This document shows, in pieces, positions 3,575 through 29,014 of a DNA stretch of 64,000 nt (within the stretch, counting starts at the first letter, position 1; every line of letters begins with the position of its first letter). Below the pieces are notes generated by a model that was given only the letters and a program-made list of their open reading frames with translations, was not told the DNA's origin and searched no databases. The DNA comes from Rhizobacter sp. AJA081-3 (GTDB lineage: Bacteria; Pseudomonadota; Gammaproteobacteria; Burkholderiales; Burkholderiaceae_C). The stretch covers positions 4,278,001 to 4,342,000 of the forward strand of contig NZ_CP059067.1 in assembly GCF_017795745.1 (NCBI RefSeq). The letters run 5' to 3'. A program made the position numbers and the translations under genes.

Positions 3575-3601
3575 TTGACGTTTACGTAAACGTCAATGAT
3601 A
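3575..3601 (-). promoter_or_regulatory. LiuR-type operator overlapping the promoter of the thioesterase-ivd operon
   Basis: Bases 3575-3596 form a perfect 22-bp palindrome beginning TTGACGTTTACG. It can be read as two overlapping 16-bp LiuR-like sites offset by 6 bp. On the minus strand a candidate -10 hexamer, TATCAT (3601-3596), abuts it, so a bound regulator would cover the transcription start. Closely related sites lie at 5037-5052 and 28999-29014. The family consensus is recalled from comparative studies of LiuR; binding here is inferred. Confidence 0.8.
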
Positions 3602-3718
3602 GCGGAGCCGGCGTTCGGCGACTGCCGGGGTCTGCCCTGATGAATCGCAATGCAGCGCGGTACCGGCGGCCTAGATTGTTCTCATGGGCCCCCGCCGCGG
3701 AGTCCCCCGGAGATCACC

Positions 3719-4000
3719 ATGAACCGATCACGTCAGCTCGCCATTCTTGCCCTGTCCGCCTCGCTGCTGGCCTTGTCAGGCTGCGCCGGCATGAGTCACC
3801 GCCACCCGGCTGGTGACGCGGCCACTGCCGGGCCGATGGGCGGCATGCACGGAATGCACGGAATGCAGGCCATGCACGAGCGCATCATGAATGCGAAGAC
3901 GACTGAAGAGCGCCAGGCGCTGATGGCCCAGCACATGAAGGACATGCCCGGGCAATGTGCCGAGATGATGGGCCCGGGCGGCAACGCACCGCCGAAATAG
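3719..4000 (+). CDS. Small Met/His-rich lipoprotein
   Basis: A 93-residue predicted lipoprotein. A hydrophobic signal peptide ends in the lipobox ALSGC (C22). The mature part has a methionine/histidine-rich run with three GMH/GMQ repeats at about residues 39-48 followed by AMHERIM, then a charged helix and a C-terminal CAEMMGPGG. Start chosen at the ATG at 3719, preceded by CGGAG; an upstream ATG at 3650 would bury the signal peptide. Met/His-rich exported peptides often bind copper or other soft metals, but no metal gene is adjacent, so function is unknown. It stands alone between the ivd operon and an unrelated membrane protein. Confidence 0.7.
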   Translation: MNRSRQLAILALSASLLALSGCAGMSHRHPAGDAATAGPMGGMHGMHGMQAMHERIMNAKTTEERQALMAQHMKDMPGQCAEMMGPGGNAPPK

Positions 4001-4040
4001 CCGTGAGCTAGCCCGGCCATCGCGCGACACTCGGGGCGTC

Positions 4041-4577
4041 ATGGACACCCTCGCGCACGGCCTGTGGGCCGCCATCGGCATCGCGGCGATGCAGCCGCGT
4101 TTCGCCGTCACGCGCACCCAGGCCGTGGCGGCTGTCTCGCTCGCCGTGGCGCCGGACTTGCTGCAGTGGCTGCCGTTGCTGGGCTGGGCCGCCGTCGGCG
4201 GCGGTCACCTGAGCGACCTGACCACCTTCGGGCTCGCGCTCCCAGGCCAGGAACCGGGTTTGCCGGAGATCGTCGCCCTGCTGACCCACCACCTGCACTG
4301 CATCATGCACAGCGCCGTGGTCGCAGGCGTCGTGACGGCGTTGGCCTGGCGCTTTCGTCGCGCGATGCTGCTGCCACTGCTGGGCTGGTGGTCGCACATC
4401 GTCATCGATGTGCCCACCCATTCGGCCGACTACTACGCGGTGCCCGTGCTGTACCCGTTCACGCAGCGCGGCTTCGACGGCTGGGCCTGGAACACACCGG
4501 CCGCGCTGGCGCTGAACTACACGGCCATCGCGGCCGCACTGGGCTGGCTGGCCTGGCGGCGGCGCCGCCGGCTCTGA
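4041..4577 (+). CDS. Membrane protein resembling YdjM/DUF457 metal-dependent hydrolases
   Basis: A 178-residue polytopic protein. It starts MDTLAHGLWAA and carries APDLLQW, HHLHCIMHS and the motif WWSHIVIDVPTHSADYY, a histidine/aspartate pattern like that of YdjM-type (DUF457) membrane-bound putative hydrolases. At least four hydrophobic segments are visible, and the protein ends in an arginine cluster facing the cytoplasm. The family has no firmly established reaction. It converges with liuR, whose stop lies 8 bp away, so no functional link to branched-chain catabolism should be assumed. Confidence 0.65.
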   Translation: MDTLAHGLWAAIGIAAMQPRFAVTRTQAVAAVSLAVAPDLLQWLPLLGWAAVGGGHLSDLTTFGLALPGQEPGLPEIVALLTHHLHCIMHSAVVAGVVTALAWRFRRAMLLPLLGWWSHIVIDVPTHSADYYAVPVLYPFTQRGFDGWAWNTPAALALNYTAIAAALGWLAWRRRRRL

Positions 4578-4584
4578 AAGCGGC

Positions 4585-5016
4585 TCAGCCGCCCTTGCGC
4601 CGCTCGCCCTCGGCGAGCAGGCGTCGCGCTTCCTTCTCGTGGGCGCGCACCTCGTCGAGCGTGGCGTCGAGGTCGGCCATCTGCTGCTCGAGCTGGGCGC
4701 GATGCGCGGCCAGCACGACTAGGAACTTCTTCAGCTGCGGCTGCGTGTCGCGCGGCGACTCGTACATGTCGACGAGTTCCTTCACCTCCGCCAGCGTGAG
4801 GCCGAGGCGCTTGCCGCGCAGCGTCAGCTTGAGCCGGGTGCGGTCGCGCGCGGTGTAGACGCGGTTGCGGCCGCTGCGCTGCGGCGTGATGAGGCCGCAA
4901 TCCTCGTAGAAGCGGATGGCGCGGGTGGTGAGATCGAACTCGCGCGCCAGTTCACCGATGGTGTAGGTGGCCCCACCGGACGAGGGCGACGCTTGGGCGA
5001 CAGCGGCTACGGACAT
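4585..5016 (-). CDS. liuR: MerR-family regulator LiuR
   Basis: A 143-residue MerR-type regulator. The winged helix-turn-helix occupies about residues 18-60 (YTIGELAREFDLTTRAIRFY, EDCGLITPQRSGRNRVYTARD), followed by a long coiled-coil dimerisation helix. It lacks the cysteine-rich metal-binding tail of metal-sensing MerR proteins. Identification as LiuR rests on the family type, on the operator in its own control region and on the matching palindrome before the nearby ivd operon. LiuR proteins control leucine/isovalerate and related acyl-CoA genes in proteobacteria (established). The gene is divergent from a metallo-hydrolase and is probably autoregulated. Confidence 0.87.
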   Translation of the reverse strand: MSVAAVAQASPSSGGATYTIGELAREFDLTTRAIRFYEDCGLITPQRSGRNRVYTARDRTRLKLTLRGKRLGLTLAEVKELVDMYESPRDTQPQLKKFLVVLAAHRAQLEQQMADLDATLDEVRAHEKEARRLLAEGERRKGG

Positions 5017-5023
5017 GGCGGCT

Positions 5024-5057
5024 TACACTGGCTCGATTGACGTTTACGTCAAGTGTA
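5024..5057. promoter_or_regulatory. Shared LiuR operator with two opposed -10 boxes
   Basis: The 16-bp near-palindrome TTGACGTTTACGTCAA occupies 5037-5052. A plus-strand -10 box TACACT (5024-5029) lies 7 bp before it and reads towards the hydrolase at 5074. A minus-strand TACACT (5057-5052) touches its other side and reads towards liuR. One bound dimer would cover both start regions, predicting joint control of both genes. Confidence 0.78.
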
Positions 5058-5073
5058 GCGAAGCCTGCCCCCC

Positions 5074-6132
5074 ATGAATCCCGACGAGCGCCACCTGCAG
5101 TACACCTTCGGCGACACCCTGCCGTCCACCGGCACCACACTGGAGGTGGCGACCGGCGTCCGCTGGCTGCGCATGCCGCTGCCCTTCGCGCTGGACCACA
5201 TCAACCTGTGGCTGCTGCGCGATCGCGACGAAGCCGGCCGCGAGGGCTGGGCGATCGTCGATTGCGGCATCGCCAACGACATCACGCGCGCCGCCTGGGA
5301 GCAAGTCTTCCAGAGCGAGCTGCAGGGCCTGCCGGTGCTGCGCGTGATCGTCACGCACATGCACCCCGACCACATCGGCCTGGCGCACTGGCTCACCGAG
5401 CGCTGGGGCGTGCGGCTGTGGATCAGCGCCACCGACTTCAACGCCGCACGCCTGGCCAGCCAGTCGACCACCGGCTTCGGCGGCGAGAGCGCGGCGGCCT
5501 TCATGGCCAGCCACGGCCTGACCGACCCCGACGCGGTGGACAAGGTGCGCAAGCGCAGCAACTACTACGCGAGCATGGTGCCGCAGGTGCCGGCACGCTT
5601 TCGCCGCCTGATGGGAGGCGACACCCTGCGCATCGGAGAGCACGACTGGGCCTGCCACGCCGGCTATGGCCACGCGCCGGAGCACATCTCGCTGCACTGC
5701 GCCGCTTTGGGCGTGCTGATCAGCGGCGACATGGTGCTGCCGCGCATCTCCACCAACGTCAGCGTGATCGACCTGGAACCCGAGGCCAACCCGTTGCCGC
5801 TGTACCTGTCCTCGATCGGCCGCATGCTGGCCTTGCCCGCCGAGACGCTGGTGCTGCCCTCGCACGGCAAGCCCTTCCGCGGCCTGCACACCCGCGTCGG
5901 GCAGCTGGTGGCGCACCACGACGAACGATTCGCCGACCTGATGGCCGCCTGCGCGCAGGCGCCGCAGACTGCGGCGAGCCTGCTGCCGGTGCTCTTCCGC
6001 CGGCCGCTGGACCTGCACCAGACCACCTTCGCGATGGGCGAGTCGATCGCCCACCTGAACGCGCTGTGGCTGCGCGGCGAACTGAAGCGCGAACTCGGCG
6101 CTGACGGCGTGCTGCGCTTCGCGCCGGCCTGA
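5074..6132 (+). CDS. Metallo-beta-lactamase fold hydrolase of the LiuR regulon
   Basis: A 352-residue single-domain metallo-hydrolase. The metal motif THMHPDH lies at 94-100, the bridging aspartate is in LISGDMVLP and a later ligand histidine is in VLPSHGKPF; a further histidine pair is in GHAPEHISLH. The extra C-terminal helical part after about residue 270 resembles large MBL-fold hydrolases often found with fatty-acid or acyl-CoA genes. It is divergent from liuR and shares its operator, so a role in thioester or lactone hydrolysis during branched-chain catabolism is likely, though the substrate is unknown. The ATG at 5074 is the first in frame after the operator. Confidence 0.85.
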   Translation: MNPDERHLQYTFGDTLPSTGTTLEVATGVRWLRMPLPFALDHINLWLLRDRDEAGREGWAIVDCGIANDITRAAWEQVFQSELQGLPVLRVIVTHMHPDHIGLAHWLTERWGVRLWISATDFNAARLASQSTTGFGGESAAAFMASHGLTDPDAVDKVRKRSNYYASMVPQVPARFRRLMGGDTLRIGEHDWACHAGYGHAPEHISLHCAALGVLISGDMVLPRISTNVSVIDLEPEANPLPLYLSSIGRMLALPAETLVLPSHGKPFRGLHTRVGQLVAHHDERFADLMAACAQAPQTAASLLPVLFRRPLDLHQTTFAMGESIAHLNALWLRGELKRELGADGVLRFAPA

Positions 6133-6136
6133 GCGC

Positions 6137-6685
6137 CTAGACGATGTAGGCGACGGCGAACACGCCGATCATCAGGAACACGAGCACCAGCTTGACAACG
6201 GTGCCGAGCAACTGGCCGACCCAGGTGGCCACGCCCACGCGGGTGGCTTGGCGGCCGGCCAGCGCATGGTCGGCCGGGCTGGCGAAGCCGCCGAGCTTGC
6301 GATGCTGGCTCCAGTACTCGCCCGCCATCGCACCCGCCAGCGGCATGAACAGCAGGCCGACGAAGCCGGTGAAGATGCCCAGCAGCGTGCCGAGGGCCGC
6401 ACCCGCCACCGCCGCCGGGCTCGCGCCGGCCTTCTTCGCGCCGAGCAGCGCCGCCACGTAGTCGGTGGCCCAGGCCAGCACGGCGAGCAGCGCGATGAAG
6501 CCGACCGTCCAGCCCGACACCTTGGCGAAGCCGTCGATCCAGGCGCCCAGCCCCACGCCGGCGAGCACGAGGATGGCGCCGGGCAGCACCGGCAGGATCG
6601 CCCCCGCCACGCCCACCGCCATCAGCGAGAGGGCCAGCAACCACCACCAGGGGTTGGCCGCGACCACCGTGACCGTTTCCAGCAT
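6137..6685 (-). CDS. DUF456 family membrane protein
   Basis: A 182-residue very hydrophobic protein with about five transmembrane segments. Glycine-rich segments such as VGVAGAILPVLPGAILVLAGVGLGAW and ALGTLLGIFTGFVGLLFMPLAGA match the small DUF456 membrane family, which has no assigned function. The start is the ATG at 6685; longer reading frames upstream run into non-coding sequence. Its stop is 4 bp from the convergent hydrolase stop. A gap of 62 bp separates it from the deacetylase upstream, so cotranscription with that cluster is possible but unproven. Confidence 0.8.
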   Translation of the reverse strand: MLETVTVVAANPWWWLLALSLMAVGVAGAILPVLPGAILVLAGVGLGAWIDGFAKVSGWTVGFIALLAVLAWATDYVAALLGAKKAGASPAAVAGAALGTLLGIFTGFVGLLFMPLAGAMAGEYWSQHRKLGGFASPADHALAGRQATRVGVATWVGQLLGTVVKLVLVFLMIGVFAVAYIV

Positions 6686-6747
6686 CGCCACACTCCAGCC
6701 GGGCAAACGTGCCCGAGGTCGCGAAGATGGTGGCGCGTCGCCGCGAT

Positions 6748-7653
6748 TCAAGCGGCCGGGCCGGCCACCGCGTCGACGATGGCCCCCGGCGTGGTGATCC
6801 ACACCTCGTGATCGGCGTGCCGAGCCACGTGCTGAAGAGCGCGCCGCAGGTGGCGCAGCCGGTAGGGCTGGCCGACCAGGTAGGGGTGCAGCGCCAGGCC
6901 CATCACCAGCGAGGGCGCGTCGTCGTTGCGCTGCGTCTGCTCGAGCATCTCGTCGAACTGGTCGACGATCATCTGCGCGAAATCCTTGCCGTCCAACTGG
7001 CGTGCCACGATCATCGGGATGTCATTGAGCTCCTGCGGATAGGGCACCGACCACAGCGTGCCCCCGCCACGCGTGCGCATCGGCACCGGCTGGTCGTCGT
7101 GGCACCAGTTCAGCGTGTAGCGGTAGCCGGTCTCGCGCAGCAGGTCGGGCGTGTGCGCGCTCTCCGAGATCCACGGCGACAGCCAGCCCTGCGGCGCACG
7201 GCCATGCGCCTGCGTCATGCGGTTGCGGCACTGCTGCAGCAGCGCGCGCTCCTGAGCCTCGGGCCAGCCGCCCTGCCGCTCGGCATTGGTGTGGCCGTGG
7301 GCGATCAGTTCGTCGCCGCGTTCGGCGAAGGCCATCACGACCTGCGGGCAGTGGTCGTACAGCGCGGTGTTGACCAGCGCGCCCACCGGCAGCGACAGGT
7401 CGTCGAACAGGTCGAGGCAGCGCCACACGCCGACGCGGTTGCCGTACTCGCGCCAGCCGTAGTTCAGCACGTCGACCGGCGCGGAAGGCGCCAGCGTCGC
7501 GCCCAGGCCCTCGCCGAAGGCGAAGTGCTCGATGTTGAAGCCGATGTAGAAGGCCAGCTTCGCGCCGCCGGGCCAGACGAAGCGCATGCGCTCACCGATG
7601 CCCGAGTAGTCGAAGCGGTCGTGGCCCGGCAGCGCACCGTAGGGTTCGCTCAT
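6748..7653 (-). CDS. PuuE-like polysaccharide-deacetylase-fold amidohydrolase
   Basis: A 301-residue NodB-fold protein resembling PuuE allantoinase rather than true sugar deacetylases: the segment YGWREYGNRVGVWRCLDLFDDL and the motif ELIAHGHTNAE (histidine pair) align with PuuE-type enzymes that open cyclic ureides or imides. The first NodB aspartate position reads FNIEHF. The ATG at 7653 overlaps the stop of the GntR regulator (ATGA), so the two are translationally coupled. Neighbouring ABC-transporter and hydantoin-racemase-like genes support a role in ureide, hydantoin or cyclic-imide catabolism. The exact substrate is undecided. Confidence 0.78.
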   Translation of the reverse strand: MSEPYGALPGHDRFDYSGIGERMRFVWPGGAKLAFYIGFNIEHFAFGEGLGATLAPSAPVDVLNYGWREYGNRVGVWRCLDLFDDLSLPVGALVNTALYDHCPQVVMAFAERGDELIAHGHTNAERQGGWPEAQERALLQQCRNRMTQAHGRAPQGWLSPWISESAHTPDLLRETGYRYTLNWCHDDQPVPMRTRGGGTLWSVPYPQELNDIPMIVARQLDGKDFAQMIVDQFDEMLEQTQRNDDAPSLVMGLALHPYLVGQPYRLRHLRRALQHVARHADHEVWITTPGAIVDAVAGPAA

Positions 7654-8360
7654 GCATCCTCCCGGTAGGGCGCGAAGACATCGCGCAGCGCAGGTGTAGC
7701 ACGGGCGGCCGGCGCGTCCAGCGAACGCTCGATCTCGTTGAGGTGGCGGCGCATCTCGGTGGCCGCGGCGGCAGCGCTGTCGGCCTCGAGCTTGCCCAGC
7801 AGCACGCGGTGGCTGTGCGCCACGCACATCGGTTCGCCCGGCGGCTTGTACAGCGCCATCAGCAGCGAGGTGGTGGGCAACAGCTCCTCGAGCATGCGCA
7901 CGAACAGCGGGTTGCCGCTCAGCCGCGCCAGCTCCACATGGAAGGCGCCGGACAGGCGGATCGCCTCCCTGTGGTCGCCCGCCTTGGTAGCCCGCTCCTC
8001 GGCATCGACGAGGCGTTTCAGGCCGGCCACCTGCGCCTTCTCCAGCGAGCCGGCCAGGCGGCGCACCACCTCGCACTCGACCACGCGGCGCGCGTCGAAC
8101 ACATGCGCGCCTTCGGCGCGCGTCGGCTCGGGCACCTGCGCTCCGCGATTGGGCCGCAGCACCACCACGCCGTCCTGGGCCAGCCGGTGCAGCGCCTGGC
8201 GCACCAGGGTGCGCGAGACGGCGAAGGTTTGCGCCAGCTCTTCCTCGCGCAGCCGCGCGCCGGGCGGCAGGCGGTGGTCGATCACCGCGGCGTAGATGGC
8301 GTCGTAGACCCGGTCGGCCGCCATCGCAGGGGCCGGAGCGTTCAGCGTGCGGCGTGGCAC
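7650..8360 (-). CDS. GntR-family (FCD-type) transcriptional regulator
   Basis: A 236-residue regulator. The N-terminal winged helix lies at about 15-75 with LREEELAQTFAVSRTLVRQALHRL, and the C-terminal all-helical FCD ligand domain at about 90-215 has the metal-type histidines in FHVELARL and VAHSHRVLL. It sits between the ABC permease genes and the PuuE-like gene, 4 bp from the former and overlapping the latter by 4 bp, so it is probably the cluster regulator. TGTATACA-like sites in the divergent promoter region at 12.43-12.63 kb fit known FCD-type operators and are its likely targets. Confidence 0.88.
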   Translation of the reverse strand: MPRRTLNAPAPAMAADRVYDAIYAAVIDHRLPPGARLREEELAQTFAVSRTLVRQALHRLAQDGVVVLRPNRGAQVPEPTRAEGAHVFDARRVVECEVVRRLAGSLEKAQVAGLKRLVDAEERATKAGDHREAIRLSGAFHVELARLSGNPLFVRMLEELLPTTSLLMALYKPPGEPMCVAHSHRVLLGKLEADSAAAAATEMRRHLNEIERSLDAPAARATPALRDVFAPYREDA

Positions 8361-8364
8361 GCGC

Positions 8365-9195
8365 TCAGCCGCCGAGGCGGCGGCGGTTGCGCCGGCCCAG
8401 CCACGCGGCGGCGCCCAGCGCCAGCGCGATGACGACCAGCGAGATCATCGTGGTCACGGTGCCCAGCGCATAGAGCACCGGCGTCGTCACGTTGGTCGTC
8501 ATGCCGTAGATTTCGAGTGGCAGCGTGTTGAAGGTGCCGGCAGTGTAGAGGCTGCGGGCGAACTCGTCGTAGGACAGCGTGAACCCGAACAAGCCGACGC
8601 CGATCAGGCTGGGCAGCAGAATGGGCACCACCACGTGCCTGATCGTCTGCCAGGAGGTGGCGCCGAGGTCGCGCGCCGCTTCCTCGTAGCGCCGGTCGAA
8701 GCGATTGAAGACGGCGAACATGATCAGCAGACCGAACGGCAGCGTCCAGGTGAGGTGGGCGCCAAAAGCGGAGCTGTACCAGGCCGGATCCCAGCCCAGG
8801 ACGCGGAACAACAGTCCGATGCCCAGGCTGATCAAGATCGAAGGAACGATCAGGCTGGCAATGGCGAGGTAGAAGATGATGCCGGATCCGCGGAAGCGCG
8901 AGAAGCGAAACGCAAGCCCGGCGGAAAACGACGCGATCACCGTCACGACCATGGTCGCGGCACCCAGCGCCATCGAGCGCTGGAAGGAGCCCGCAAAGTC
9001 GCCGACCATCTGCTTCTCGAACAGGTTCTTGAACCAGTGCAGCGACACGCCGTTCATCGGGAAGGTGAGCCCGCCGGACGGACCCTGGAACGACAGGATG
9101 AGGATGGTCAGCGTCGGCCCGTAGAGGAACAGCACGAACAGGCAGAAGAAGGCGCCGAGGATCCAGAAGGCGGGACCGCGCTTGCCGTGCTGCAC
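8365..9195 (-). CDS. ABC transporter permease, PotC type
   Basis: A 276-residue inner-membrane permease with six predicted membrane segments. The EAA loop EEAARDLGATSWQTIRHVVVPILLPSL, which contacts the ATPase, is seen at about 172-198. The N-terminus GPAFWILGAFFCLFVLFLYGPTLTILILSF is typical of PotC/PotI-like subunits of polyamine-type importers. It lies 1 bp from the PotB-type gene and 4 bp before the GntR gene. In this locus the cargo is more likely a ureide-type nitrogen compound than a polyamine, given the flanking enzymes. Confidence 0.88.
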   Translation of the reverse strand: MQHGKRGPAFWILGAFFCLFVLFLYGPTLTILILSFQGPSGGLTFPMNGVSLHWFKNLFEKQMVGDFAGSFQRSMALGAATMVVTVIASFSAGLAFRFSRFRGSGIIFYLAIASLIVPSILISLGIGLLFRVLGWDPAWYSSAFGAHLTWTLPFGLLIMFAVFNRFDRRYEEAARDLGATSWQTIRHVVVPILLPSLIGVGLFGFTLSYDEFARSLYTAGTFNTLPLEIYGMTTNVTTPVLYALGTVTTMISLVVIALALGAAAWLGRRNRRRLGG

Positions 9196-9196
9196 G

Positions 9197-10080
9197 TCAC
9201 AGCTCCTTGCGGATGTCGACGAGGCGCATCATGGCCGCGACGATGAGCAAGACGACCAACAGCAGGATCACTGCATTTGCCGCGGCGGCAGGGTACTGCA
9301 GCAGCGACATGGCGTTGGCCATCATCAGCCCGACCGACGCACTCAGCCCGCCACTCATCATGCGCACGGTGACGAAGTCGCCCATGACGATGGTGACGAT
9401 GAAGATCGAACCGATGGCGATGCCGGGCTTGCACAGCGGCAGGATGACGTTCCAAAGCGTCTGCCACCCCGAGGCGCCGGCGTCGCGCGCTGCCTCGAGC
9501 AGGCTGCGGTCGATGCGCATCATCGAGTTGAAGATCGGCACCACCATGAACAGCGTGTAGAGGTGGACATAGGCCAGCACGACCGCGAAATCCGAATAGA
9601 GCAGGAACTCCAGCGGCTGCTGGATCAGGCCCATGTTCATCAGCGTGGTGTTGGCGAGGCCGTTGCGCCCGAGGAACGGGATCCACGAGATCATGCGGAT
9701 GACGTTGGAGGTCCAGAACGGATGGTGCAGATCAGGAACAACACCGTCTGCATCGTCGGCGAGCGCACGTAGAACGCTACGAAGTAAGCGACGGCGAAGC
9801 CGATGACGAGGGTCAGCGCCCAGGTGATGAGAGCGAACTGGATGGTCTGCTGGTAGGTCCGCCAGGTGACCGGCGACAGCAGCAGTTCCTCATAGTTCTG
9901 CAGCCAGTGAAGGCCGGGATGATCTGCGTCGTAGTCGCTGGTCGGCCAGAAGCTCACCGCGCCGATCAGCAACAGCGGCGCGATGAAGAAGAACAGGAAC
10001 ACCGCCCCGAAGGGCAGTGCCTGCAGCCACGCCGGCGGACCGGCGCGAAGGCTCGTCGACTTAGGCGGCGACGAACTCAT
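9197..10080 (-). pseudogene. ABC transporter permease, PotB type, broken by one frameshift
   Basis: Two reading frames form one PotB-like permease. The N-terminal part (10080 to about 9720) contains ALPFGAVFLFFFIAPLLLIG and ends FLICTI. The C-terminal part (from about 9720 to 9197) contains the EAA loop LEAARDAGASGWQTLWNVIL. The family has FLICTIPFWTSNVIRM at the junction; here one C seems to be missing after the isoleucine codon (near 9722), moving the rest out of frame. Both halves are otherwise well conserved with no other stop. Either a recent mutation or a base-call error, which I favour because similar indels litter the next 2.5 kb. The start overlaps the binding-protein gene end by 20 bp. 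Confidence 0.8.
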
Positions 10081-11385
10081 TCCACTTCTGGACCATGTAG
10101 GTGTTCTCGTCCATCAGCGCGTTCCAGCAGGCGATGCCGCCCATGCGCTGCTCGTACGAACCCCCGTCGCGCACGCCGCCGGCCTTGTGCAGCAGGTCGC
10201 CGTTGGGCGACTTGATGTCCTTCTCGGCGGGCTTGCCTTCCATCCAGTAGGCCCACTCGTAGGGCTCCATCTTGGCTTTGGCGGTCTCGAGCACGGCGCT
10301 GTAGTAGCCCTGGCGGTTCAGGTAGGCACCGGCCCAGCCGTCGAGGAACCAGTTGATGAACTCGTAGGCGCCGTCGAGCTTCTTGCCCGACAGCGTGGCC
10401 GGCAGGCCGAAGCCGGCGGCCCAGGCGCGATAACCTTCCTTGAGCGGCTGGTAGACGCAGGGCGACGCCCTTGGCAGCGCACCGCCGAGTCACCGCCGGC
10501 GACCACATCGACTGGATCACGACCTCGCCCGAGGTCATGAGGTTCACCGACTCGTCGAAGGTCTTCCAGAAGGCGCGGAACTGTCCTTCCTTCTTGGTCT
10601 TGATCAGGAAATCGATGGTCTTGTCGATTTCCGCCTTGGTCATGTTGCCCTTGTCGCCGTACTTCACGATGCCGGCCGACTCGCAGATCATGGCGGCGTC
10701 CATGATGCCGATCGACGGGATGTTCAGGATCGACGTCTTGCCCTTGAACTTCGGGTCGAGGATGTCCTTCCAGTTCTCGATCTTGCGACCGACCAGGTCG
10801 GGCCGGATGCCCAGCGTGTCAGCATTGTAGATCGTGGGGATCATGGCTCATGAACCAGCCGGTCTGGCGACTTGGCGAACACCTTGGTCGAGCTCGGGCC
10901 CTCGACGAAGCTCACCGTGTTCGGCGCCGTGCCCTGGGCGCCTGACCGCCTGTGCAGGCTTCGAGCTTGCCGGTGGTGAACAGCGTGGTGATCTTGTCGG
11001 CGTTCTTGATCTTCTTGACGTCGATGCCCTTGAGGTTGCCGGTGGGCACGATCTTCTTCAGCGAGAAGTACTCGGTGTCGATCGATGTCGAACGCTGTTG
11101 GGCTGAGGTCACTACACGCTGCTTGGTCACCGCGTCGGTGTTGACGGCGACGTCATCTGCAGCGTGATGCCGAGTGTCGGCCTTGCACTTCTCGGCGATC
11201 TCGTTGATCGCCGTTCACCGCGGTGCCGCACTGGCGCAGCACGATGTTCTTGTTGTTCTGCGCCCATGCATCACCGGGAACAGCCGGTGATCGCGCAGGC
11301 TGCCCAGCGCCGCGCCTTGCAATACCGGCCGCACCCTTGCAGCATCCTGCGACGGCCTACGCAGTCGCATTTGATTTCCGTGCCA
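10061..11385 (-). pseudogene. Polyamine-type ABC substrate-binding protein, multiply frameshifted
   Basis: A PotD/PotF-like periplasmic binding protein that can be pieced together from several frames. The ATG at 11385 follows AAGGAGAG. After a frame break the Tat-like signal GRRRMLQGAAG appears, then WAQNNKNIVLRQCGTAV, INEIAEKCKAD, EYFSLKKIVPTGNLKGIDV, then a long intact piece from YNADTLGIRPDLVG to SGEVVIQSMWSPAV, and the end WNALMDENTYMVQKW. I see breaks near 11355, 11213, 11180, 11100, 10930, 10850 and 10480. The pieces themselves are well conserved, so sequencing error or very recent decay is likelier than an old pseudogene. The Tat signal suggests export in folded form. Confidence 0.75.
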
Positions 11386-11400
11386 TTTCGGTTCTCTCCT

Positions 11401-12419: not shown

Positions 12420-12427
12420 GGGGCCAG

Positions 12428-12435
12428 TGTATGCA
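12428..12435. promoter_or_regulatory. Candidate GntR operator before the ABC operon
   Basis: TGTATGCA, 8 bp upstream of the ATPase ATG, differs by one base from TGTATACA found at 12619-12626 in front of the divergent racemase. An ATGCAAAGCAT inverted repeat (12431-12441) overlaps it. FCD-type GntR proteins commonly bind TTGTATACAA-like sites, so this is a plausible target of the GntR protein encoded in the operon. Confidence 0.4.
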
Positions 12436-12618
12436 AAGCATGTGCCACCGCACCCCCGGGCCGCCCCGGATGGCAGGACGCCGAAAACGCACCGTGGCGC
12501 ACCACGATCTGCACCAGCACGGGCATCTCCGCAGGCGATTCGCCCGGAATTGGGGCGACGCAGCCGCCGGCGCACGGGCTCGGCTCTTGCGGTAAGGTGA
12601 GGACTTCGTTCGACGCTT

Positions 12619-21500: not shown

Positions 21501-21653
21501 CGCCCAGGTGGGAGAGAAAGTGCCGGAGCGCGAAGCTTACCCGAACGCTCGCGCGCCCTGGCACGGCCTTCGCTTGACACATCTGGTACCTTGAACCAAA
21601 GTCGTCGCCCCCCACTTTCACCGATTCCCCAAACGCATTTCAAGGCAGATCCC

Positions 21654-22697
21654 ATGGCTCTCATCCCCGCCACCATCCTCACCGGCTTCCTTGGCTCGGG
21701 CAAGACGACCCTGCTCAAGCGGGTGCTCACCGAGGCGCACGGCCAGAAGATCGCGGTGATCGAGAACGAGTTCGGCGACGAGAACATCGACAACGAGATC
21801 CTCGTTCAGGACACGAAAGAACAGATCATCCAGCTCAACAACGGCTGCGTGTGCTGCACGATCCGCGAGGATCTGCGCACCACCCTGTCGGACCTGGCGG
21901 CGAAAAAGCGCAAGGGCGAACTCCAGTTCGACCGGGTGGTCATCGAGACCACCGGCCTGGCCGACCCCGGCCCGGTGGCACAGACCTTCTTCATGGACGA
22001 CGAGATCGCCGAGAGCTACCTGCTCGACTCGATCCTGACGCTGGTGGACGCCAAGCACGCCGACGGCCAGCTCGACACCCGCCAGGAGGCGCGCCGCCAG
22101 ATCGGTTTCGCCGACCAGATCTTCATCAGCAAGACCGACCTGGTCGACGACGCCACGGTCGATGCGCTGATCCACCGCGTCAAGCACATGAACCCGCGCG
22201 CGCCGCAGCGCAAGGTCAACTTCGGCGAGGTGCCCATTGCCGAGGTGTTCGACCTGCGCGGCTTCAACCTGAACGCCAAGCTGGACATCGACCCGGAGTT
22301 CCTGTCCGGCGACGGGCATGGCCACGATCACGACCATGACCATGACCATGATCACGAGCATGGCGAACACTGCGACCACCCGCACCATCATCACCATGAT
22401 GACGACGTGAAGTCCTTCGTCTTCCGCTCCGACAAGGCCTTCAACCCGGCCAAGCTGGAGGACTTCCTCGGCGCCATCGTGCAGGTCTACGGACCGAAGA
22501 TGCTGCGCTACAAGGGCGTGCTGAACATGAAGGGCAGCGACCGCAAGGTGATCTTCCAGGGCGTGCACCAGCTCATGGGCAGCGACCTGGGTCCGAAATG
22601 GGCCGCGGGCGAGAAGAAGACCAGCAAGATGGTGTTCATCGGCCTGGACCTGCCGCGCGATGTTTTCCTGCAAGGGCTGGAGCAGTGTTTGGCCTGA
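21654..22697 (+). CDS. CobW/COG0523-family GTPase (metallochaperone)
   Basis: A 347-residue G3E GTPase. P-loop GFLGSGKTT is at 11-19, the metal motif CVCC at 65-68, ETTGLADP at 98-105 and guanine-specificity SKTD at 159-162. A histidine/aspartate-rich loop spans 222-248 with more than a dozen histidines, followed by the CobW C-terminal domain. The family inserts or guards Zn, Co or Fe in client proteins; the His-rich loop favours zinc or nickel/cobalt handling. The ATG at 21654 agrees with the family start. I see no clear Zur operator in the 153 bp upstream, so its regulation is open. Confidence 0.9.
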   Translation: MALIPATILTGFLGSGKTTLLKRVLTEAHGQKIAVIENEFGDENIDNEILVQDTKEQIIQLNNGCVCCTIREDLRTTLSDLAAKKRKGELQFDRVVIETTGLADPGPVAQTFFMDDEIAESYLLDSILTLVDAKHADGQLDTRQEARRQIGFADQIFISKTDLVDDATVDALIHRVKHMNPRAPQRKVNFGEVPIAEVFDLRGFNLNAKLDIDPEFLSGDGHGHDHDHDHDHDHEHGEHCDHPHHHHHDDDVKSFVFRSDKAFNPAKLEDFLGAIVQVYGPKMLRYKGVLNMKGSDRKVIFQGVHQLMGSDLGPKWAAGEKKTSKMVFIGLDLPRDVFLQGLEQCLA

Positions 22698-22715
22698 CCG
22701 TGACGTGGCTACAAT
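22688..22715 (+). promoter_or_regulatory. Candidate sigma-70 promoter of dksA
   Basis: TTTGGC (22688-22693) and TACAAT (22710-22715) are separated by 16 bp, about 80 bp before the dksA start. The -10 box is strong, the -35 weak. It lies immediately after the CobW gene stop. Confidence 0.45.
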
Positions 22716-22793
22716 CCGCGGCGCCTGAAACCGGGCCCAGCCGTCGCCCGCGCCTTGCGGACGGGGTATAACCGTCATTGCGAGGAGACATCC

Positions 22794-23729
22794 GTGAGCA
22801 AGACACCGGCCACCAAAGCTAGTACCAAGAAGGCCGCCGCCAAGTCAGCCGCCCCCGTCGCCAAGGGCAAGCCCGCGGCCAAGGCCAAGACGGCAGCCAA
22901 GCCCGCCGCCCCCGCCAAGAAGGCTGCGGCCAAGGCCCCCGTGAAGGCGGCCCCGGCCAAGTCCGCCCCGATCAAGGCTGCGACGCCCGCCAAGGCGCTG
23001 CCGGCCAAGACCGTTCCGGCCAAGGCACCGGCCGTCAAGGCGCCGGCGCCCAAGCCCGTCGCCGTGGCGGCACCGGCTCCCCAACCAACGCCGCCGACTG
23101 CCGCGCCTGCGCCGGTGGTGCGGTCATCGCGGTCCGGCCGCAACCCGCCTCCGCCACCGGTCAGCGCCCCGCTGCCGCCGGCAACTTCCCGATTCGCCGA
23201 CCGGTTTGCACCGCCGCGGCCCCCGACCCGTCAGATGAACAACCTCGGACTCGATTCCCCCAAACCCTCCCACAAGGCCGACCCGAAGCTGGCCAACGCC
23301 TGGAAGACCAAGGCCGGCCGCGACCTCAGCGAAGCCGAGTTGATGGCCATGCCCGACTCGGAGTACATGAATGACAAGCAGCTGGACTTCTTCCGCCACA
23401 AGCTGCAGACGCTCAAGGACGACCTGCTGTCCAATGCCGGCGAGACCACCGAGCACCTGCGCGAGGACACCTCCATCGTGCCGGACCCGGCGGACCGCGC
23501 CACCATCGAGGAAGAGCATGCGCTGGAGCTGCGAACCCGTGACCGCGAGCGCAAGCTGCTCAAGAAGATTTCACAGTCGCTGGGCCGCATCGAAGCCGGT
23601 GACTACGGTTTCTGTGACGAAACCGGCGAGCCGATCGGCCTGGGGCGCCTGATTGCACGCCCCACCGCTACACTGTCCCTCGAGGCCCAGCAGCGGCGCG
23701 AGCTGAAACAGAAGATGTTCGGCGACTGA
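22794..23729 (+). CDS. dksA: RNA polymerase-binding protein DksA with histone-H1-like N-terminal tail
   Basis: A 311-residue protein, about twice the length of E. coli DksA. Residues 1 to about 105 are almost only K, A and P in AAKA/PAKA-like repeats similar to bacterial histone-H1-like tails, followed by a proline-rich linker. The DksA part begins near residue 160; the coiled-coil tip keeps DPADRAT with both aspartates needed to act in the RNA polymerase secondary channel. The zinc finger is degenerate: only one cysteine (C274 in YGFCDETGE) remains. The GTG at 22794 is preferred over an ATG at 22755 because CGAGGAG precedes it. Likely a ppGpp-linked transcription factor. Confidence 0.88.
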   Translation: MSKTPATKASTKKAAAKSAAPVAKGKPAAKAKTAAKPAAPAKKAAAKAPVKAAPAKSAPIKAATPAKALPAKTVPAKAPAVKAPAPKPVAVAAPAPQPTPPTAAPAPVVRSSRSGRNPPPPPVSAPLPPATSRFADRFAPPRPPTRQMNNLGLDSPKPSHKADPKLANAWKTKAGRDLSEAELMAMPDSEYMNDKQLDFFRHKLQTLKDDLLSNAGETTEHLREDTSIVPDPADRATIEEEHALELRTRDRERKLLKKISQSLGRIEAGDYGFCDETGEPIGLGRLIARPTATLSLEAQQRRELKQKMFGD

Positions 23730-23760
23730 GGCTGGTTCAGCCCAGTCGCGCCCTACCGTC

Positions 23761-25482
23761 ATGTCGGAACCCAAAGACACCACGAGCTTTTTTCGCAAGG
23801 TCGTCAAGTTCGTGGCCAATCCGACCACGGAATGGGCCGAGATCGGCCTGCCTGCGGACGAAGCACGCGAGACTGAGTTCGCCAAGTCCGAGCTGAAGGC
23901 GATGATCGAGCGCAAACGGCGCAACGACTTCGTCCGCAAGCGCGAGTTCGACATGCTGCGCAAGGTGCGCCGCGAGGGCCTGTCGCCCGAGCAGCTGGCG
24001 GCCCTGGGTGGTTCGTCCCGGCTCGACGATTCCGAAGGCCGCCTGCTGGTGGCCGAGAGCGGCGCCAAGCAGGACGCCGGCGTCAAGGCCAAGATCGACG
24101 AGATCGAGCAGCAGATGGTGGGCGACGGATACGGCGCCTCGCCGCCGCGGCGCGGCCCCGACTTCTACAACGCCCCGACGCAGCCGATCCCGATGGGCGG
24201 CAACGCGCCTGCGCCGAGCTCGCGCATGCCGCTGAATGGCGCCAGGGCGGAAGAGCCGCTGGCCCGGCCATCCCCGGCACCCGCGACGCCGCCCGCTGCG
24301 GCCGTGATGGGCGCCGGCCTGTCGCCCCTGTCTCCGCTGACGTTGGACAGCGGCGCAGGCGACTTCGCGCACCCGTTCGCCGTCGAGGTCAGCGAAGTCG
24401 CCCACGACCCGGAGCTCGACGAGGCGGTGATCGCCTTCGCGAATGCCGATTTCGAGCAATGCGAGCAGTCGCTGTCCGACCTGACTGGGCAGGGGGGCCA
24501 GCGCCATGCGCATGCCGAGACCTGGCTGGTGCTGTTCGACCTGTACCGTGCGATCGGCCAGCAGCACAAGTTCGAGAGCCTGGCGCTCGACTATGCACAG
24601 CAGTTCGGCTGGTCGGCGCCGCAGTGGTTCTCGATGCCGCGCATGGTGGCCGAAGCTGCCAGCGAAGACCGGCCGGCGCGCAACAGCCGCATCGAAGGCA
24701 ATGTGGGCTGGGTGTGCCCGGACTACCTCGACGCGGACGCAGTGGCCAGGTTGTCCTCGCAGAGCCTGCAGATGCCGCTGCCCTGGGTGTTCGACTGGAG
24801 CGCCCTGAAGAACATGGACGCCGAGGCGGCAGCCAAGCTGTCGGAGCTGTTCCGCAACTGGATCCGCCAGAAGCTGGACATGCGCTGGCTGGGCGGCGAG
24901 CGGCTGTTCGCCGTGCTGGCCGAAGCCGCGCCGACCGGCGTGCGCGATGCCGACCCGGCCTACTGGCAGCTGCGCCTGGATGCGCTGCGCATGACGAACC
25001 GGCCCGACCAGTTCGACGAGGCGGCGATCGACTACTGCGTCACCTACGAGGTGTCGCCGCCGTCCTGGGAGCCGGCACAGTGCGAGGTGCGCGTGAGCGG
25101 CTCGCAGTCGAGCACCACTTCGCCGCCGCTGTCGATGGTCAGCGACGTGTCGACCAGCTTCATCGAATCCCGCTTCAACGAAGACCCGACCGCGACGGTG
25201 CAGGTGGCCAGCGTCGAGCTGTCCGGCCAGCTGGTCGGCGACATCGGCCCGACGCTCAAGCGCCTCGAAGGGGAGCTCGGCGGCTCGACCATCGTCAACG
25301 TCAGCTGCTCCAGGCTCATCCGCGTCGACTTCATCGCCGCCGGTGACCTGCTGAACTGGGTGCTGGCGCGGCGCAACGAGAACCGCAGCGTCGTCTTCGT
25401 CGAATCACATCGCCTGGTGGCGCTGTTCTTCGGCGCGATGGGCATCAACGAGCATGCCCGCGTGAAAGTTCGCTCGGTCTGA
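23761..25482 (+). CDS. STAS-domain protein of unknown function
   Basis: A 573-residue soluble protein. The N-terminal 130 residues are charged and helical, residues 135-200 are proline/alanine-rich and likely disordered, and the C-terminal part (about 470-570) has a STAS-like fold pattern: VELSGQLVGDIGPTLKRLEGEL, then VNVSCSRLIRVDFIAAGDLLNWV. A central region around 215-300 looks like helical repeats. It sits between dksA and hslVU, all on the plus strand with gaps of 31 and 45 bp. STAS domains usually sense or relay signals, but no partner anti-sigma or kinase gene is nearby. Confidence 0.75.
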   Translation: MSEPKDTTSFFRKVVKFVANPTTEWAEIGLPADEARETEFAKSELKAMIERKRRNDFVRKREFDMLRKVRREGLSPEQLAALGGSSRLDDSEGRLLVAESGAKQDAGVKAKIDEIEQQMVGDGYGASPPRRGPDFYNAPTQPIPMGGNAPAPSSRMPLNGARAEEPLARPSPAPATPPAAAVMGAGLSPLSPLTLDSGAGDFAHPFAVEVSEVAHDPELDEAVIAFANADFEQCEQSLSDLTGQGGQRHAHAETWLVLFDLYRAIGQQHKFESLALDYAQQFGWSAPQWFSMPRMVAEAASEDRPARNSRIEGNVGWVCPDYLDADAVARLSSQSLQMPLPWVFDWSALKNMDAEAAAKLSELFRNWIRQKLDMRWLGGERLFAVLAEAAPTGVRDADPAYWQLRLDALRMTNRPDQFDEAAIDYCVTYEVSPPSWEPAQCEVRVSGSQSSTTSPPLSMVSDVSTSFIESRFNEDPTATVQVASVELSGQLVGDIGPTLKRLEGELGGSTIVNVSCSRLIRVDFIAAGDLLNWVLARRNENRSVVFVESHRLVALFFGAMGINEHARVKVRSV

Positions 25483-25490
25483 GCGACTGA

Positions 25491-25518
25491 CTTGAAGCGC
25501 CGCCCGGCGGCGCCATCT
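25491..25518 (+). promoter_or_regulatory. Candidate sigma-32 (heat-shock) promoter of hslVU
   Basis: CTTGAAG (25491-25497), 14 bp, then GCCATCT (25512-25518), close to the sigma-32 consensus CTTGAAA-N13-15-CCCATNT. The predicted start lies within a few bases of the hslV ATG, so this would yield a very short leader. hslVU is a classical heat-shock operon. The hsp20 gene at 49696 has a very similar site. Confidence 0.45.
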
Positions 25519-25527
25519 GGGATCTCC

Positions 25528-26064
25528 ATGGAAACCTACCACGGCACGACCATCGTCAGCGTGCGGCGCGGGCCTGTCGTCGCGCTCGGCGGCGACGGTC
25601 AGGTCACGCTCGGCACCATCGTCGTCAAGGCTTCGGCGCGCAAGGTGCGAAAGCTGCACCACGACCAGGTGCTCGCCGGCTTCGCCGGCGCGACGGCCGA
25701 CGCCTTCACGCTGTTCGAGCGCTTCGAGGCCAAGCTCGAGAAACACCAGGGCCACCTCGTGCGCGCCGCCATCGAGCTGACGAAGGACTGGCGCACCGAC
25801 CGCGTTCTGCGCCGGCTCGAGGCCATGCTCGCGGTGGCCGACAAGGAGGCCTCGCTGATCATCACCGGCAACGGCGACGTGCTCGAGCCCGAGCACGGCA
25901 TCATCGCCATCGGCTCCGGCGGCGCCTATGCCAATGCCGCCGCCCGCGCGTTGCTCGAGCACACCCAGATGGCGCCGAAGGACATCGTCAAGAAGTCGCT
26001 CGAGATCGCCGGCGACCTGTGCATCTACACCAATCAGCACCACACGATCGAGACGATCGAATGA
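25528..26064 (+). CDS. hslV: ATP-dependent protease proteolytic subunit HslV
   Basis: A 178-residue N-terminal-nucleophile peptidase, partner of HslU. The N-terminus [14 protein letters not shown] is processed before T7, which becomes the catalytic Thr1. Further family marks are [14 protein letters not shown] and [17 protein letters not shown], and [11 protein letters not shown] near 130. The ATG at 25528 is chosen over 25492 because the propeptide is normally only a few residues. The end overlaps the hslU start (ATGA). Confidence 0.97.
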
Positions 26065-27365
26065 AGTCGTCGATGACACCCCAGGAGATCGTCTCCGAAC
26101 TCGACCGCCACATCGTCGGCCAGCGCGACGCCAAGCGCTCGGTGGCCATCGCACTGCGCAACCGCTGGCGGCGCCAGCAGGTCGACGAGAAGATGCGCGC
26201 CGAGATCACGCCGAAGAACATCCTGATGATCGGGCCCACCGGCGTGGGCAAAACCGAGATCGCGCGGCGCCTGGCGAAGCTCGCCGACGCGCCCTTCATC
26301 AAGGTCGAGGCGACCAAGTTCACCGAGGTGGGCTACGTCGGCAAGGACGTCGACTCGATCATCCGCGACCTCGCCGACATGGCCGTCAAGCAGGAGCGCG
26401 AGGCAGCGATGAAGCGCCAGCGCGTGCGCGCCGAAGACGCCGCCGAGGACCGCGTCCTCGACGTGCTGGTGCCCGGCTCGTCGGCCGACAACACCGCGCG
26501 GCAGGTGATGCGCAAGCGGCTTCGCGAAGGCGCGCTGGGTGACAAGGAAATCGAGGTCGACCTGGCGGAGGCACGTGCGCCGCTGGAGATCATGAGCCCG
26601 GCCGGCATGGAAGACATGGCCGAGCAGCTCAAGGGCATGTTCGCCAACCTCGGCACCACGCCGCGCAAGACGCGAAAGCTGAAGATCGCCGAGGCGCTCA
26701 AGCTGCTCGCCGACGAAGAGGCCGCCAAGCTCGTCAACGACGAGGACGTGAAGACCGCTGCGCTGGCCAACGCCGAGCAGAACGGCATCGTCTTCATCGA
26801 CGAGATCGACAAGGTGGCCTCGCGCGGCAGCACGCAGGGCGCCGATGTGTCGCGCCAGGGCGTGCAGCGCGACCTGCTGCCGCTGGTGGAGGGCACGACG
26901 GTGAACACCAAGTACGGCATGTTGCGGACGGATCACATCCTGTTCATCGCCTCGGGGGCTTTCCACCTGAGCAAGCCCAGCGACCTGATCCCGGAGCTGC
27001 AGGGGCGCTTCCCGATCCGCGTCGAGCTGGGCGCGCTCGGCGTCGATGACTTCGAGGCGATCCTCACGCAGACGCACGCCAGCCTGGTCAAGCAATACCA
27101 GCTGCTGCTGGCCACCGAGGGCGTGACGCTGGAGCTCGCGCCGGATGCCATCCGGCGGCTGGCGCAGATCGCGTTCGACGTCAACGACCGCACCGAGAAC
27201 ATCGGCGCGCGGCGCCTGGCCACGGTGATGGAGCGGCTGCTCGACGAGATCAGCTTCGACGCGCCCAACCTGTCAGGCCGCACCATCACCATCGATGCCG
27301 CGGCGGTCGACGCGAAACTGGCCGCACTGGTGAAGAACGAGGACTTGTCGCGCTACATCCTGTAG
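26061..27365 (+). CDS. hslU: ATP-dependent protease ATPase subunit HslU
   Basis: A 434-residue AAA+ unfoldase. [17 protein letters not shown] opens the protein, Walker A is GPTGVGKTE, the GYVG pore loop is in [17 protein letters not shown], Walker B is FIDEIDKVA and sensor-2 region [16 protein letters not shown] is near the C-terminus. The I-domain (about 110-230) is of normal length. Its ATG overlaps the hslV stop, so the two subunits are made together. It converges with coaX 24 bp away. Confidence 0.97.
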
Positions 27366-27389
27366 GCGGCAACGCCCCGGCCGCTCGCG

Positions 27390-28157
27390 TCAAAGCGCCA
27401 GGCGGTGCGCCTGCAACTGCAGCAGCCCTTCGAAGATCAGCGTGTCGACCGTCTCGAACGGCAGTTGCGTGATCGGAGCGAGCTTGACGGCGGCGCCGCC
27501 GGTCATGATCAACGCCGGCTCCTGACCCGTGCGCTCGCGCAGCTTGCGATGCATGCGCTCGACCGCGCCGGCCAGGGCATCGGCACCGCCGCTCATCAGC
27601 GCATCGCTGGTGTTGGTCGGGAAGTCCACCGCCTCGCCGGTCGGGGCCTTCAGGCCGGCGGTGCCCATCTCCAGCGCCCGCAGCATCAGGCCGAAGCCCG
27701 GCAGGATCAACCCGCCGAGAAAGTTGCCCTGCACATCGAGCGCGTCCACGGTGACGGCGGTACCCACCATGACGACCAGTGCCGGCCGTGGCCCGCCCTG
27801 AGCCAGCACGCGGTGGCGTGCACCGATCATGGCCACCCAGCGGTCGACGCCCAGCCGGTTGGGATGGTCGTAGCCGTTGCTCACGCCGCAGGCCTCGCGC
27901 GACGAGACCACCCAGCGGGGCTCGAGGTCCCAGATTTCGAGCTGTTCCTCGACGCGGCGCTTGACGCCCTCGCCAGCCACCACGCAGCCGAGCATGCTGG
28001 ACGGCGGCGGCAACGCCTTCCAGTCGGTCTCGGCCAGCGAGTCGATGGTCTCCAGGAACACCGCGCCCTGCGCGAGCAGCACGGCGCCGGGCTGGGGCGA
28101 GGCGTACTGCGCCCACTTCAGGCGTGTGTTGCCCACGTCGATGGCAAGAAACGTCAT
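27390..28157 (-). CDS. coaX: Type III pantothenate kinase
   Basis: A 255-residue cytoplasmic kinase for the first step of CoA synthesis. The ASKHA-type phosphate motif [11 protein letters not shown] is at 5-15; [12 protein letters not shown] and [13 protein letters not shown] supply the pantothenate- and nucleotide-binding loops; [14 protein letters not shown] and [10 protein letters not shown] complete the fold. The second gene of a two-gene minus-strand unit, 14 bp after a hypothetical gene. Confidence 0.94.
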
Positions 28158-28171
28158 GCGGCGGGCCGGAG

Positions 28172-28828
28172 TCAGAAGTTGGAGAGCGATGAGTCGACGG
28201 GCGCGTCGATCAGGCGGCGTACGCGCCGCATGAGCTGGGTCGTCGCCAGCGTGCGGTGCGGCCGACTCAGCCGGGCCTCCACTTCGTCGATCAGCGCATC
28301 GAGTTCGTCGCGCGTGTGCGCGCGACGCAGCCGCATCAGCGTCAGCGAGCCGGCCACGGGGGCTTCGGCGCGAACGGCGCGAATCAGCAGGTCGCGCGCC
28401 TGCTCGAGCGGCGCATCGAGGTCGCCGAGGTCCGAGTAGTCGGTCTCGACCATGGTCCAGGGCTCGTAGTTGCCGATGTCGCCGTTCAGCGTCGACTCCG
28501 GCTGCAGCGTGCGCGCTGCAGGCAGCTCCGATTCGGGGGCGACATCCGGCAGCGTCACGTCCACCGGCAGCGGAGGCAGCGTCGGGTGCGGCGCCAGTTC
28601 GATCGGCAGCGTGGGCAGCGGCACGGTGATCAGGCCCATGTCGAGCAGTTCGTCGTAGACGCTGGGCGGCACACCGGCACGCTCGGCCAGCAGGCGCAGC
28701 TGCGCTTCGCTGCGGCGGCCGTCCACCAGCAGCAGCAGGGTGCGATGGCGCTGGCTGAGCTGGCGCGCCCGCGTCGCCAGTTCGGCCTGGCCGTCTGGCG
28801 TCTTGATCGGTGCGTTGCCAATGCCCAA
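28172..28828 (-). CDS. Hypothetical protein, helical, unknown function
   Basis: An unrecognised 218-residue soluble protein. Residues 10-60 ([37 protein letters not shown] and on) look like a winged-helix-type module of the sort seen in polar-signalling proteins, then a proline-rich linker (about 60-100), then a helical domain with [20 protein letters not shown] and [19 protein letters not shown]. No ATG fits; I start it at TTG 28828, which has GGAGAG six bases upstream. Upstream in-frame codons reach into the ppk2 control region. Probably cotranscribed with coaX. Confidence 0.62.
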
Positions 28829-28987
28829 GGGCTTCTCTCCAGATGACGGCGTCGTGCGCCGACTCCCAACGGGCGCGATTGTGCCGCCAAACCGGCCCGG
28901 GGGCGCCAGTGTTTTCGGTCGCGTCCGCCCGCGTAAACCCCGGGGCCGGCGCGCGGCCGCGTCAGCCTCCTGCAGGGCCCCAGGCGC

Positions 28988-29014
28988 TACACTGCCAATT
29001 GACGTATACGTCAA
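28988..29014 (+). promoter_or_regulatory. LiuR-type operator at the ppk2-icmF promoter
   Basis: TTGACGTATACGTCAA (28999-29014) is a perfect 16-bp palindrome, the same class as those at 3575 and 5037. A candidate -10 box TACACT (28988-28993) ends 5 bp before it, so a bound protein would cover the transcription start. It lies 28 bp upstream of the ppk2 ATG. Confidence 0.8.

Follow-up and report, generated by a model that had tools for sequence, protein, structure and literature searches.

The founding paper on the LiuR regulon is that of Kazakov et al. 2009. The known regulon has a palindromic operator, and its form is probably shared by three palindromes in a 64,000-nucleotide stretch of Rhizobacter sp. 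AJA081-3 (hereafter the window; G000:C1:4278001–4342000, C1 being the single contig of a 5.40-Mb genome). The palindromes lie before the thioesterase–liuA–can–aceK genes, between liuR and the gene of a divergent metallo-β-lactamase (MBL)-fold hydrolase, and before ppk2–icmF. The cited sections of the literature establish LiuR as a regulator of the MerR family that controls the catabolism of branched-chain amino acids (PMC5343134, PMC3223726, PMC7238569, PMC8871633, PMC3858670) and describe it as a repressor of isoleucine, leucine, and valine utilisation (PMC3223726), with 671 sites in 103 genomes (PMC5343134 Table 1).

Comparison with described systems revealed that (i) the Proteobacteria LiuR regulon (RegPrecise; PMC5343134, PMC3223726) is, in the sections cited, alike in its MerR-family regulator, its liu targets, and its predicted repression, whereas the regulon described here adds ppk2–icmF, the MBL-fold hydrolase, can, and aceK (the RegPrecise entries for this lineage lie outside the comparison); (ii) the LiuR/ILV box of Rhodospirillum rubrum lies upstream of liuR and of the liu and ivd clusters, as here, whereas isobutyryl-CoA mutase is held unlikely in the cited part of that study (PMC7238569) and the present genome has icmF as a predicted target; (iii) liuRABCDE form one cluster in Pseudomonas aeruginosa, whereas the regulon here is split over five sites, and the part of the P. 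aeruginosa review cited (PMC8871633) makes no acyl-CoA the direct effector of LiuR; and (iv) the metal-sensing activators of the CueR/MerR type have their fold family in common with LiuR (Pfam and PDB sequence match), whereas the operators described here lie downstream of the −10 hexamer and not between −35 and −10. Within the literature covered, outside RegPrecise and subscription papers, only PMC7238569, as far as the sections concerned go, pairs LiuR with isobutyryl-CoA mutase, calling the mutase unlikely; within the same scope, none of the matches listed has LiuR and aceK together, and a pairing of LiuR with electron transfer flavoprotein (ETF) is present among them. The etf genes are part of the leucine pathway in the cited section of PMC3858670, and etf as a LiuR target is therefore no surprise.

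The three palindromes, which a preliminary description of this DNA had reported, are present in the window letter for letter:

3575–3596, no strand: LiuR operator 1 (predicted), TTGACGTTTACGTAAACGTCAA, a perfect 22-bp palindrome before thioesterase–liuA–can–aceK.
5037–5052, no strand: LiuR operator 2 (predicted), TTGACGTTTACGTCAA, 16 bp with two ACGT steps, common to liuR (minus strand) and the MBL gene (plus strand).
28999–29014, no strand: LiuR operator 3 (predicted), TTGACGTATACGTCAA, 16 bp with two ACGT steps, before ppk2–icmF.

Operator 1 has three ACGT steps with a period of 6 bp; it is not of the 16-bp form, being composed of two overlapping 16-mers that are offset by 6 bp and are each one mismatch off TTGACGTNNACGTCAA. 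The consensus across the three operators is TTKACGT-N2-ACGTMAA, which the 22-mer holds twice, 6 bp apart. At up to 3 mismatches, the window has 9 matches, whereas 100 shuffles gave 1.3 on average and 4 at most; 4 of these matches are the three operators, with operator 1 counted twice, and 5 are scattered elsewhere.

Genome-wide, TTNACGTNNACGTNAA occurs exactly at 5 places, namely the 3 in the window, C1:4268603–4268624, and C1:2257795–2257810, against an expectation of 0.034 per genome under an order-1 Markov model from 112 kb of the same genome (Poisson P(≥5) 3.5e-10). The site at C1:4268603–4268624 (L016:9603–9624) repeats the 22-mer at a distance of 9.4 kb ahead of the window; it fronts an mccB/liuB-type carboxyltransferase gene followed by enoyl-CoA hydratase, biotin carboxylase, and hydroxymethylglutaryl-CoA (HMG-CoA) lyase genes. 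The site at C1:2257795–2257810 fronts etfB–etfA–acyl-CoA dehydrogenase, 2 Mb away from the window; the other 4 operators are packed within 38.4 kb. These two sites bear out the forecast that a genome scan would find the motif at mcc and hmgL, and with operator 1 and L016:9603–9624 the liuA, liuB/mcc, and hmgL units all have an operator upstream. The single regulon of thioesterase–ivd–can–aceK, liuR, MBL, and ppk2–icmF proposed at first is thus supported and extends beyond the window, to five sites. Because 5 operators were seen against 0.034 expected, all of them before acyl-CoA genes, ppk2–icmF, or liuR/MBL, the palindromes are very probably operators of the LiuR encoded at 4585–5016. A degenerate half-site scan with TTKACGTNNACGT gave just 3 places beyond the five operators (3595443 in L004, 2918546 in L117, and 5016948); 3595443 and 2918546 were rejected as extra operators, both lying within coding-like frames.

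LiuR is present in 50 of the 60 family genomes, this one included (49 of 59 without it; E ≤ 1e-25), and an exact site lies somewhere in the liuR locus in 28 of 29 relatives (fetched loci of 2–3.4 kb). A named set comprised 79 liuR loci whose upstream flank reached 150 bp or more (one of 80 was dropped for its short flank); 77 of them have, ahead of liuR, a site that is exact (73) or one mismatch off, against 0/79 in a gene-interior control. In the present genome the site upstream of liuR is exact, which points to autoregulation. This comparative footprint supports the identity first given to the palindromes, that of LiuR-type operators of which one lies before liuR itself. In 12 aligned liuR/MBL gaps, the liuR-side TACACT is found in 11 rows and the MBL-side TACACT in 7; the twelfth row (L153) is misplaced, its LiuR match beginning late.

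In ten relatives that carry LiuR, the exact pattern marks 40 operators. Of these, 39 have a plausible target, defined as liuR/MBL, acyl-CoA genes, ppk2/icmF, or short-chain dehydrogenase/reductase (SDR) genes; one (G045, L114) has no recognised target. Of the 10 relatives, 8 have an operator before liuR, 6 before thioesterase/liuA separately from liuR, 6 before liuB, and 5 before etfBA. Seven have one before ppk2, icmF, or the pair: in three of these it fronts both genes, in three icmF but not ppk2, and in one ppk2 with no icmF seen. Five relatives have an operator before an SDR (4 of the 5 SDRs were family-scanned, and the fifth, in L110, was named by size and position only); one SDR was compared against the PDB, and its nearest relatives are 3-hydroxyacyl-CoA dehydrogenases. 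The remaining operators lie before an acyl-CoA dehydrogenase gene and between two enoyl-CoA hydratase genes. The ortholog of the operator-bearing SDR in the present genome (84% identical, C1:1948411) has no site near it, the sole match at up to 3 mismatches in its 3.8-kb locus having 3 mismatches and lying ~1.3 kb upstream; the SDR thus seems absent from the LiuR targets of this genome.

Further afield, a class-wide sample of 143 genomes gave a LiuR match in 14, own genome included (E ≤ 1e-18). Of sixteen distant LiuR-like loci from 12 genomes (41–57% identity), 12 show a site upstream that is off by one mismatch at most, and the 8-kb loci contain liuA or liuB in 7 and IcmF in 3 others (L222, L224, and L226); the rest comprise 4 of a thiolase/acyl-CoA dehydrogenase paralog group and 2 without any reference gene. 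In the group of four (L229, L230, L232, and L234), a LiuR-like regulator is followed by a thiolase and an acyl-CoA dehydrogenase relative. Three of these loci have an upstream LiuR-type site with no more than one mismatch, and the group is perhaps a paralogous regulon for other acyl-CoAs.

In the canonical MerR layout, the operator lies between −35 and −10. The −10 hexamers previously assigned to the operators, TATCAT, TACACT, and TACACT, are present, and a further TACACT faces the MBL gene:

3596–3601, minus strand: −10-like hexamer TATCAT, for the thioesterase operon, overlapping operator 1 by its final T, which is also the operator's first base.
5052–5057, minus strand: −10-like hexamer TACACT, for liuR, overlapping operator 2 by its final T in the same way.
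5024–5029, plus strand: −10-like hexamer TACACT, for the MBL gene, ending 7 bp short of operator 2.
28988–28993, plus strand: −10-like hexamer TACACT of ppk2, 5 bp ahead of operator 3.

The operator is palindromic, and therefore its two flanks serve as a built-in control. We compared the flanks of 45 operators (5 own and 40 from relatives), of which 31 have a one-sided target, 11 a two-sided target, and 3 neither; own operators 1 and 2, with genes assigned on both sides, are outside the 31, and L108:5457, put on the wrong strand by an over-long open reading frame (ORF), was counted among the 31 as a failure. With −10 and −35 weight matrices of approximate values, the target flank outscores the opposite flank in its best −10 hexamer in 29 of the 31 operators (Wilcoxon p = 1e-5, a guide only because the operator rows share ancestry), and a score of at least 5 is reached on the target side in 30/31 and on the opposite side in 4/31. 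In 20 of the 30 high-scoring cases hexamer and operator share one base, the T that ends the former and begins the latter. Own spacing varies from a one-T overlap at the thioesterase and liuR to 5 bp at ppk2 and 7 bp at MBL, so that the single repression geometry proposed at first holds in kind and not in its exact spacing. On the target side the operator thus follows, or touches, a −10 hexamer. Judged from promoter sequence, LiuR therefore most likely acts as a repressor that occludes the start site, despite its membership in the MerR family.

LiuR is presumably a dimer, like its family. It would bind TTKACGT-N2-ACGTMAA, and three-step sites would give it two overlapping registers. As the operators lie at or just downstream of −10, LiuR on its operator should keep RNA polymerase from the start site, both at the targets and at liuR. 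When branched-chain acyl-CoA intermediates accumulate, an effector, which the nature of the targets alone suggests to be isovaleryl-CoA or a relative, would release LiuR, and its release would jointly switch on the breakdown of leucine and related acyl-CoAs through thioesterase–liuA–can–aceK, the predicted operon from liuB to HMG-CoA lyase, etfBA, ppk2–icmF, and the MBL hydrolase. The site before liuR itself would provide negative feedback.

Three other explanations of the palindromes were considered. That they are chance or structural repeats without a regulatory role has a negligible probability. Near matches do arise by chance: a scan at up to 1 mismatch gave 14 matches (7 exact, overlaps counted) against 9 for a reversed-pattern control undivided by mismatch, and the 7 non-operator places with one mismatch all fall within open frames rich in GC at the third codon position. 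By the same crude frame test, 4 of the 5 operators lie outside such frames, and operator 3 is spanned by two, one of which is an upstream extension of the ppk2 frame. However, the 5 exact matches far exceed expectation, each stands before related genes, and they are conserved across genera; the comparative data in practice refute chance. A classical MerR activator, with LiuR in a 19–20 bp promoter spacer and the TTGACG of the operator as the −35, is very improbable. TTGACG fits the −35 consensus, and for liuR a TGTAAG follows 19 bp further on; however, a −10 at 18–20 bp past the TTNAC of the operator is no more frequent on the target strand (3/31) than on the other (2/31; p = 0.78, with the approximate matrices), so that no spacer −10 is enriched, and it is the −10 upstream of the operator that is strongly asymmetric.

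It is somewhat less improbable, though still unlikely, that the palindromes are real operators bound mainly by another regulator, either a paralog of LiuR or an unrelated TetR-type protein; LiuQ and FadP are known replacements of LiuR in betaproteobacteria (PMC5343134, in the section cited). Several findings favour such a reading or otherwise weigh against the main explanation: (i) the genome has a LiuR paralog, 42% identical (G000:C1:1479329–1479724; L060:3303–3755), upstream of an acyl-CoA dehydrogenase gene, and a LiuR-like site with two mismatches, ATGACGTTAACGTAAG (L060:4144–4159), lies nearby, 10 bp ahead of a plus-strand SDR gene, so that the paralog could compete with LiuR and may itself be an acyl-CoA regulator that uses a similar operator, possibly with cross-talk; (ii) the operator type recurs at the paralog-like loci L229, L232, and L234, and 4 of the 16 distant loci have no upstream site at up to 1 mismatch; (iii) exact sites occur in 3 of the 10 family genomes without a LiuR match at E ≤ 1e-25, and when 6 of the 10 were searched again at E ≤ 1e-12, G016 (a 94% complete draft with one site before etfB plus another) and G056 held sites yet gave no LiuR match; (iv) Piscinibacter sakaiensis (L152) has no site before liuR at up to 3 mismatches and Limnohabitans L159 none at up to 1; (v) a −35 hexamer scoring at least 4 lies upstream of the −10 in just 3/31, which leaves weak promoters or a second activator possible; and (vi) the MCC (methylcrotonyl-CoA carboxylase) and ETF gene names are best hits under curated cut-offs, plus gene order, HMG-CoA lyase being over its cut-off. 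Against another regulator, the site lies on liuR's own upstream region in 77 of the 79 named loci, no exact site is found in 7 of the 10 genomes without LiuR at E ≤ 1e-25, and all 10 of the LiuR-bearing relatives hold at least 2. In G033, the third of the genomes with exact sites, a diverged LiuR (36%) adjoins liuB. The single exact site of G056, TTGACGTCTACGTCAA (L235:4018–4033), lies outside any coding-like frame.

The 10-kb liuR locus of P. sakaiensis 201-F6 (L152; L095 and G053 are judged to be the same genome) contains no site at up to 3 mismatches, and the operators before liuA and liuB are kept in the P. sakaiensis genome (L100), suggesting that autoregulation was lost there.

With LiuR as the regulator, the regulon is very probably the known LiuR regulon in type, real and well conserved. 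Its less familiar features are IcmF, at times with PPK2, and the divergent MBL hydrolase as members, and the two lineage-tracking operator forms. We see about even chances for the broader proposal that the LiuR regulon, in Burkholderiales and farther afield, regularly includes IcmF and sometimes PPK2 with it, and that LiuR is a MerR protein turned start-site repressor that recognises two or three ACGT steps set at 6-bp intervals. If this holds, the B12 mutase would not be a free-standing enzyme but part of the catabolism of leucine and branched acyl-CoAs (traffic of isovaleryl-CoA/pivalyl-CoA or of isobutyryl-CoA), and PPK2 would perhaps supply nucleotide to the GTPase chaperone of IcmF. IcmF acts on isobutyryl-, isovaleryl-, and pivalyl-CoA according to the cited part of PMC10481361; isovaleryl-CoA is also the substrate of LiuA, and both genes lie under one operator type. 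A motif found by eye becomes a testable regulon of five sites in a bacterium resembling Piscinibacter, and IcmF gains a physiological setting. The conserved operator offers a handle on plain start-site repression by a MerR-family protein and on the roles of the MBL hydrolase and PPK2; the parts worth testing are the ppk2–icmF and MBL link and the start-site geometry of a MerR-family repressor.

The two-step and three-step operator forms track lineage, and the present genome has both. Among 77 operator loci, a long DNA-binding wing of LiuR goes with three steps in 49 and a short wing with two steps in 19; there are 5 exceptions (long wing with two steps in 3, short wing with three steps in 1, and short wing with a single intact ACGT in 1), and 4 loci were scored in other terms. 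By eye, the operator form is matched more closely by the residue that comes after RFYED (Cys or Met) than by wing length. Wing length and the Cys/Met residue mainly mark two clades, and we therefore claim no mechanism. The four closest relatives scanned have the two-step form, mostly TTGACGTATACGTCAA (L082, L105, and L112), and the three-step 22-mer prevails in other Comamonadaceae.

The genes beside the window operators are as follows:

3092–3544, minus strand: hotdog-fold (4HBT) thioesterase; PF03061 and TIGR00369 over cut-off.
1898–3079, minus strand: liuA, isovaleryl-CoA dehydrogenase; top PDB relatives are isovaleryl-CoA dehydrogenases (4kto 600 bits, 1ivh 527 bits).
1186–1869, minus strand: can, carbonic anhydrase; NF007756 258 bits against a cut-off of 251.
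1–1172, minus strand: 5′ part of aceK, named in the preliminary description; an ORF reading that extends beyond the window start (whole ORF L059:3388–5172).
4585–5016, minus strand: liuR, MerR-family regulator of 143 aa; PF13411 58.8, PF09278 58.0, and PF00376 40.6 bits, all over cut-off.
5074–6132, plus strand: MBL-fold hydrolase, divergent from liuR; PF00753 and PF21221 over cut-off.
29043–29888, plus strand: ppk2, polyphosphate kinase 2 family; PF03976 237 bits.
29911–33204, plus strand: icmF, fused isobutyryl-CoA mutase/GTPase; NF045497 1948 bits against a cut-off of 1500, 4xc6 IcmF 1883 bits.

The thioesterase start, read from sequence, is most likely 3544, and ppk2 starts at 29043, an ATG at 29015 being out of frame. 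A protein 70–80% identical to the aceK ORF lies behind liuA in the loci of 5 of the 10 relatives. Close solved relatives of the MBL hydrolase are titled just beta-lactamase domain protein or Zn-dependent hydrolase (6ao1, 474 bits), and those nearest to PPK2 are polyphosphate:AMP phosphotransferases. The LiuR protein comprises a MerR-type helix-turn-helix plus a MerR-DNA-bind domain; its closest named relatives are from Piscinibacter and Rhizobacter, with 99% identity in one Piscinibacter metagenome-assembled genome. The liuR gene stands in a leucine-degradation neighbourhood, ~1 kb from the thioesterase–liuA genes and 14 kb from the liuB operon. Between liuR and the thioesterase operon (3650–4577) lie two plus-strand ORFs, one of 116 codons that is lipoprotein-like by eye and one of 178 aa with no Pfam match at 1e-6. 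The thioesterase operon directly follows liuR in 4 of the 10 relatives (L082, L085, L087, and L102), and the two ORFs look like an insertion that split a liuR–thioesterase operon.

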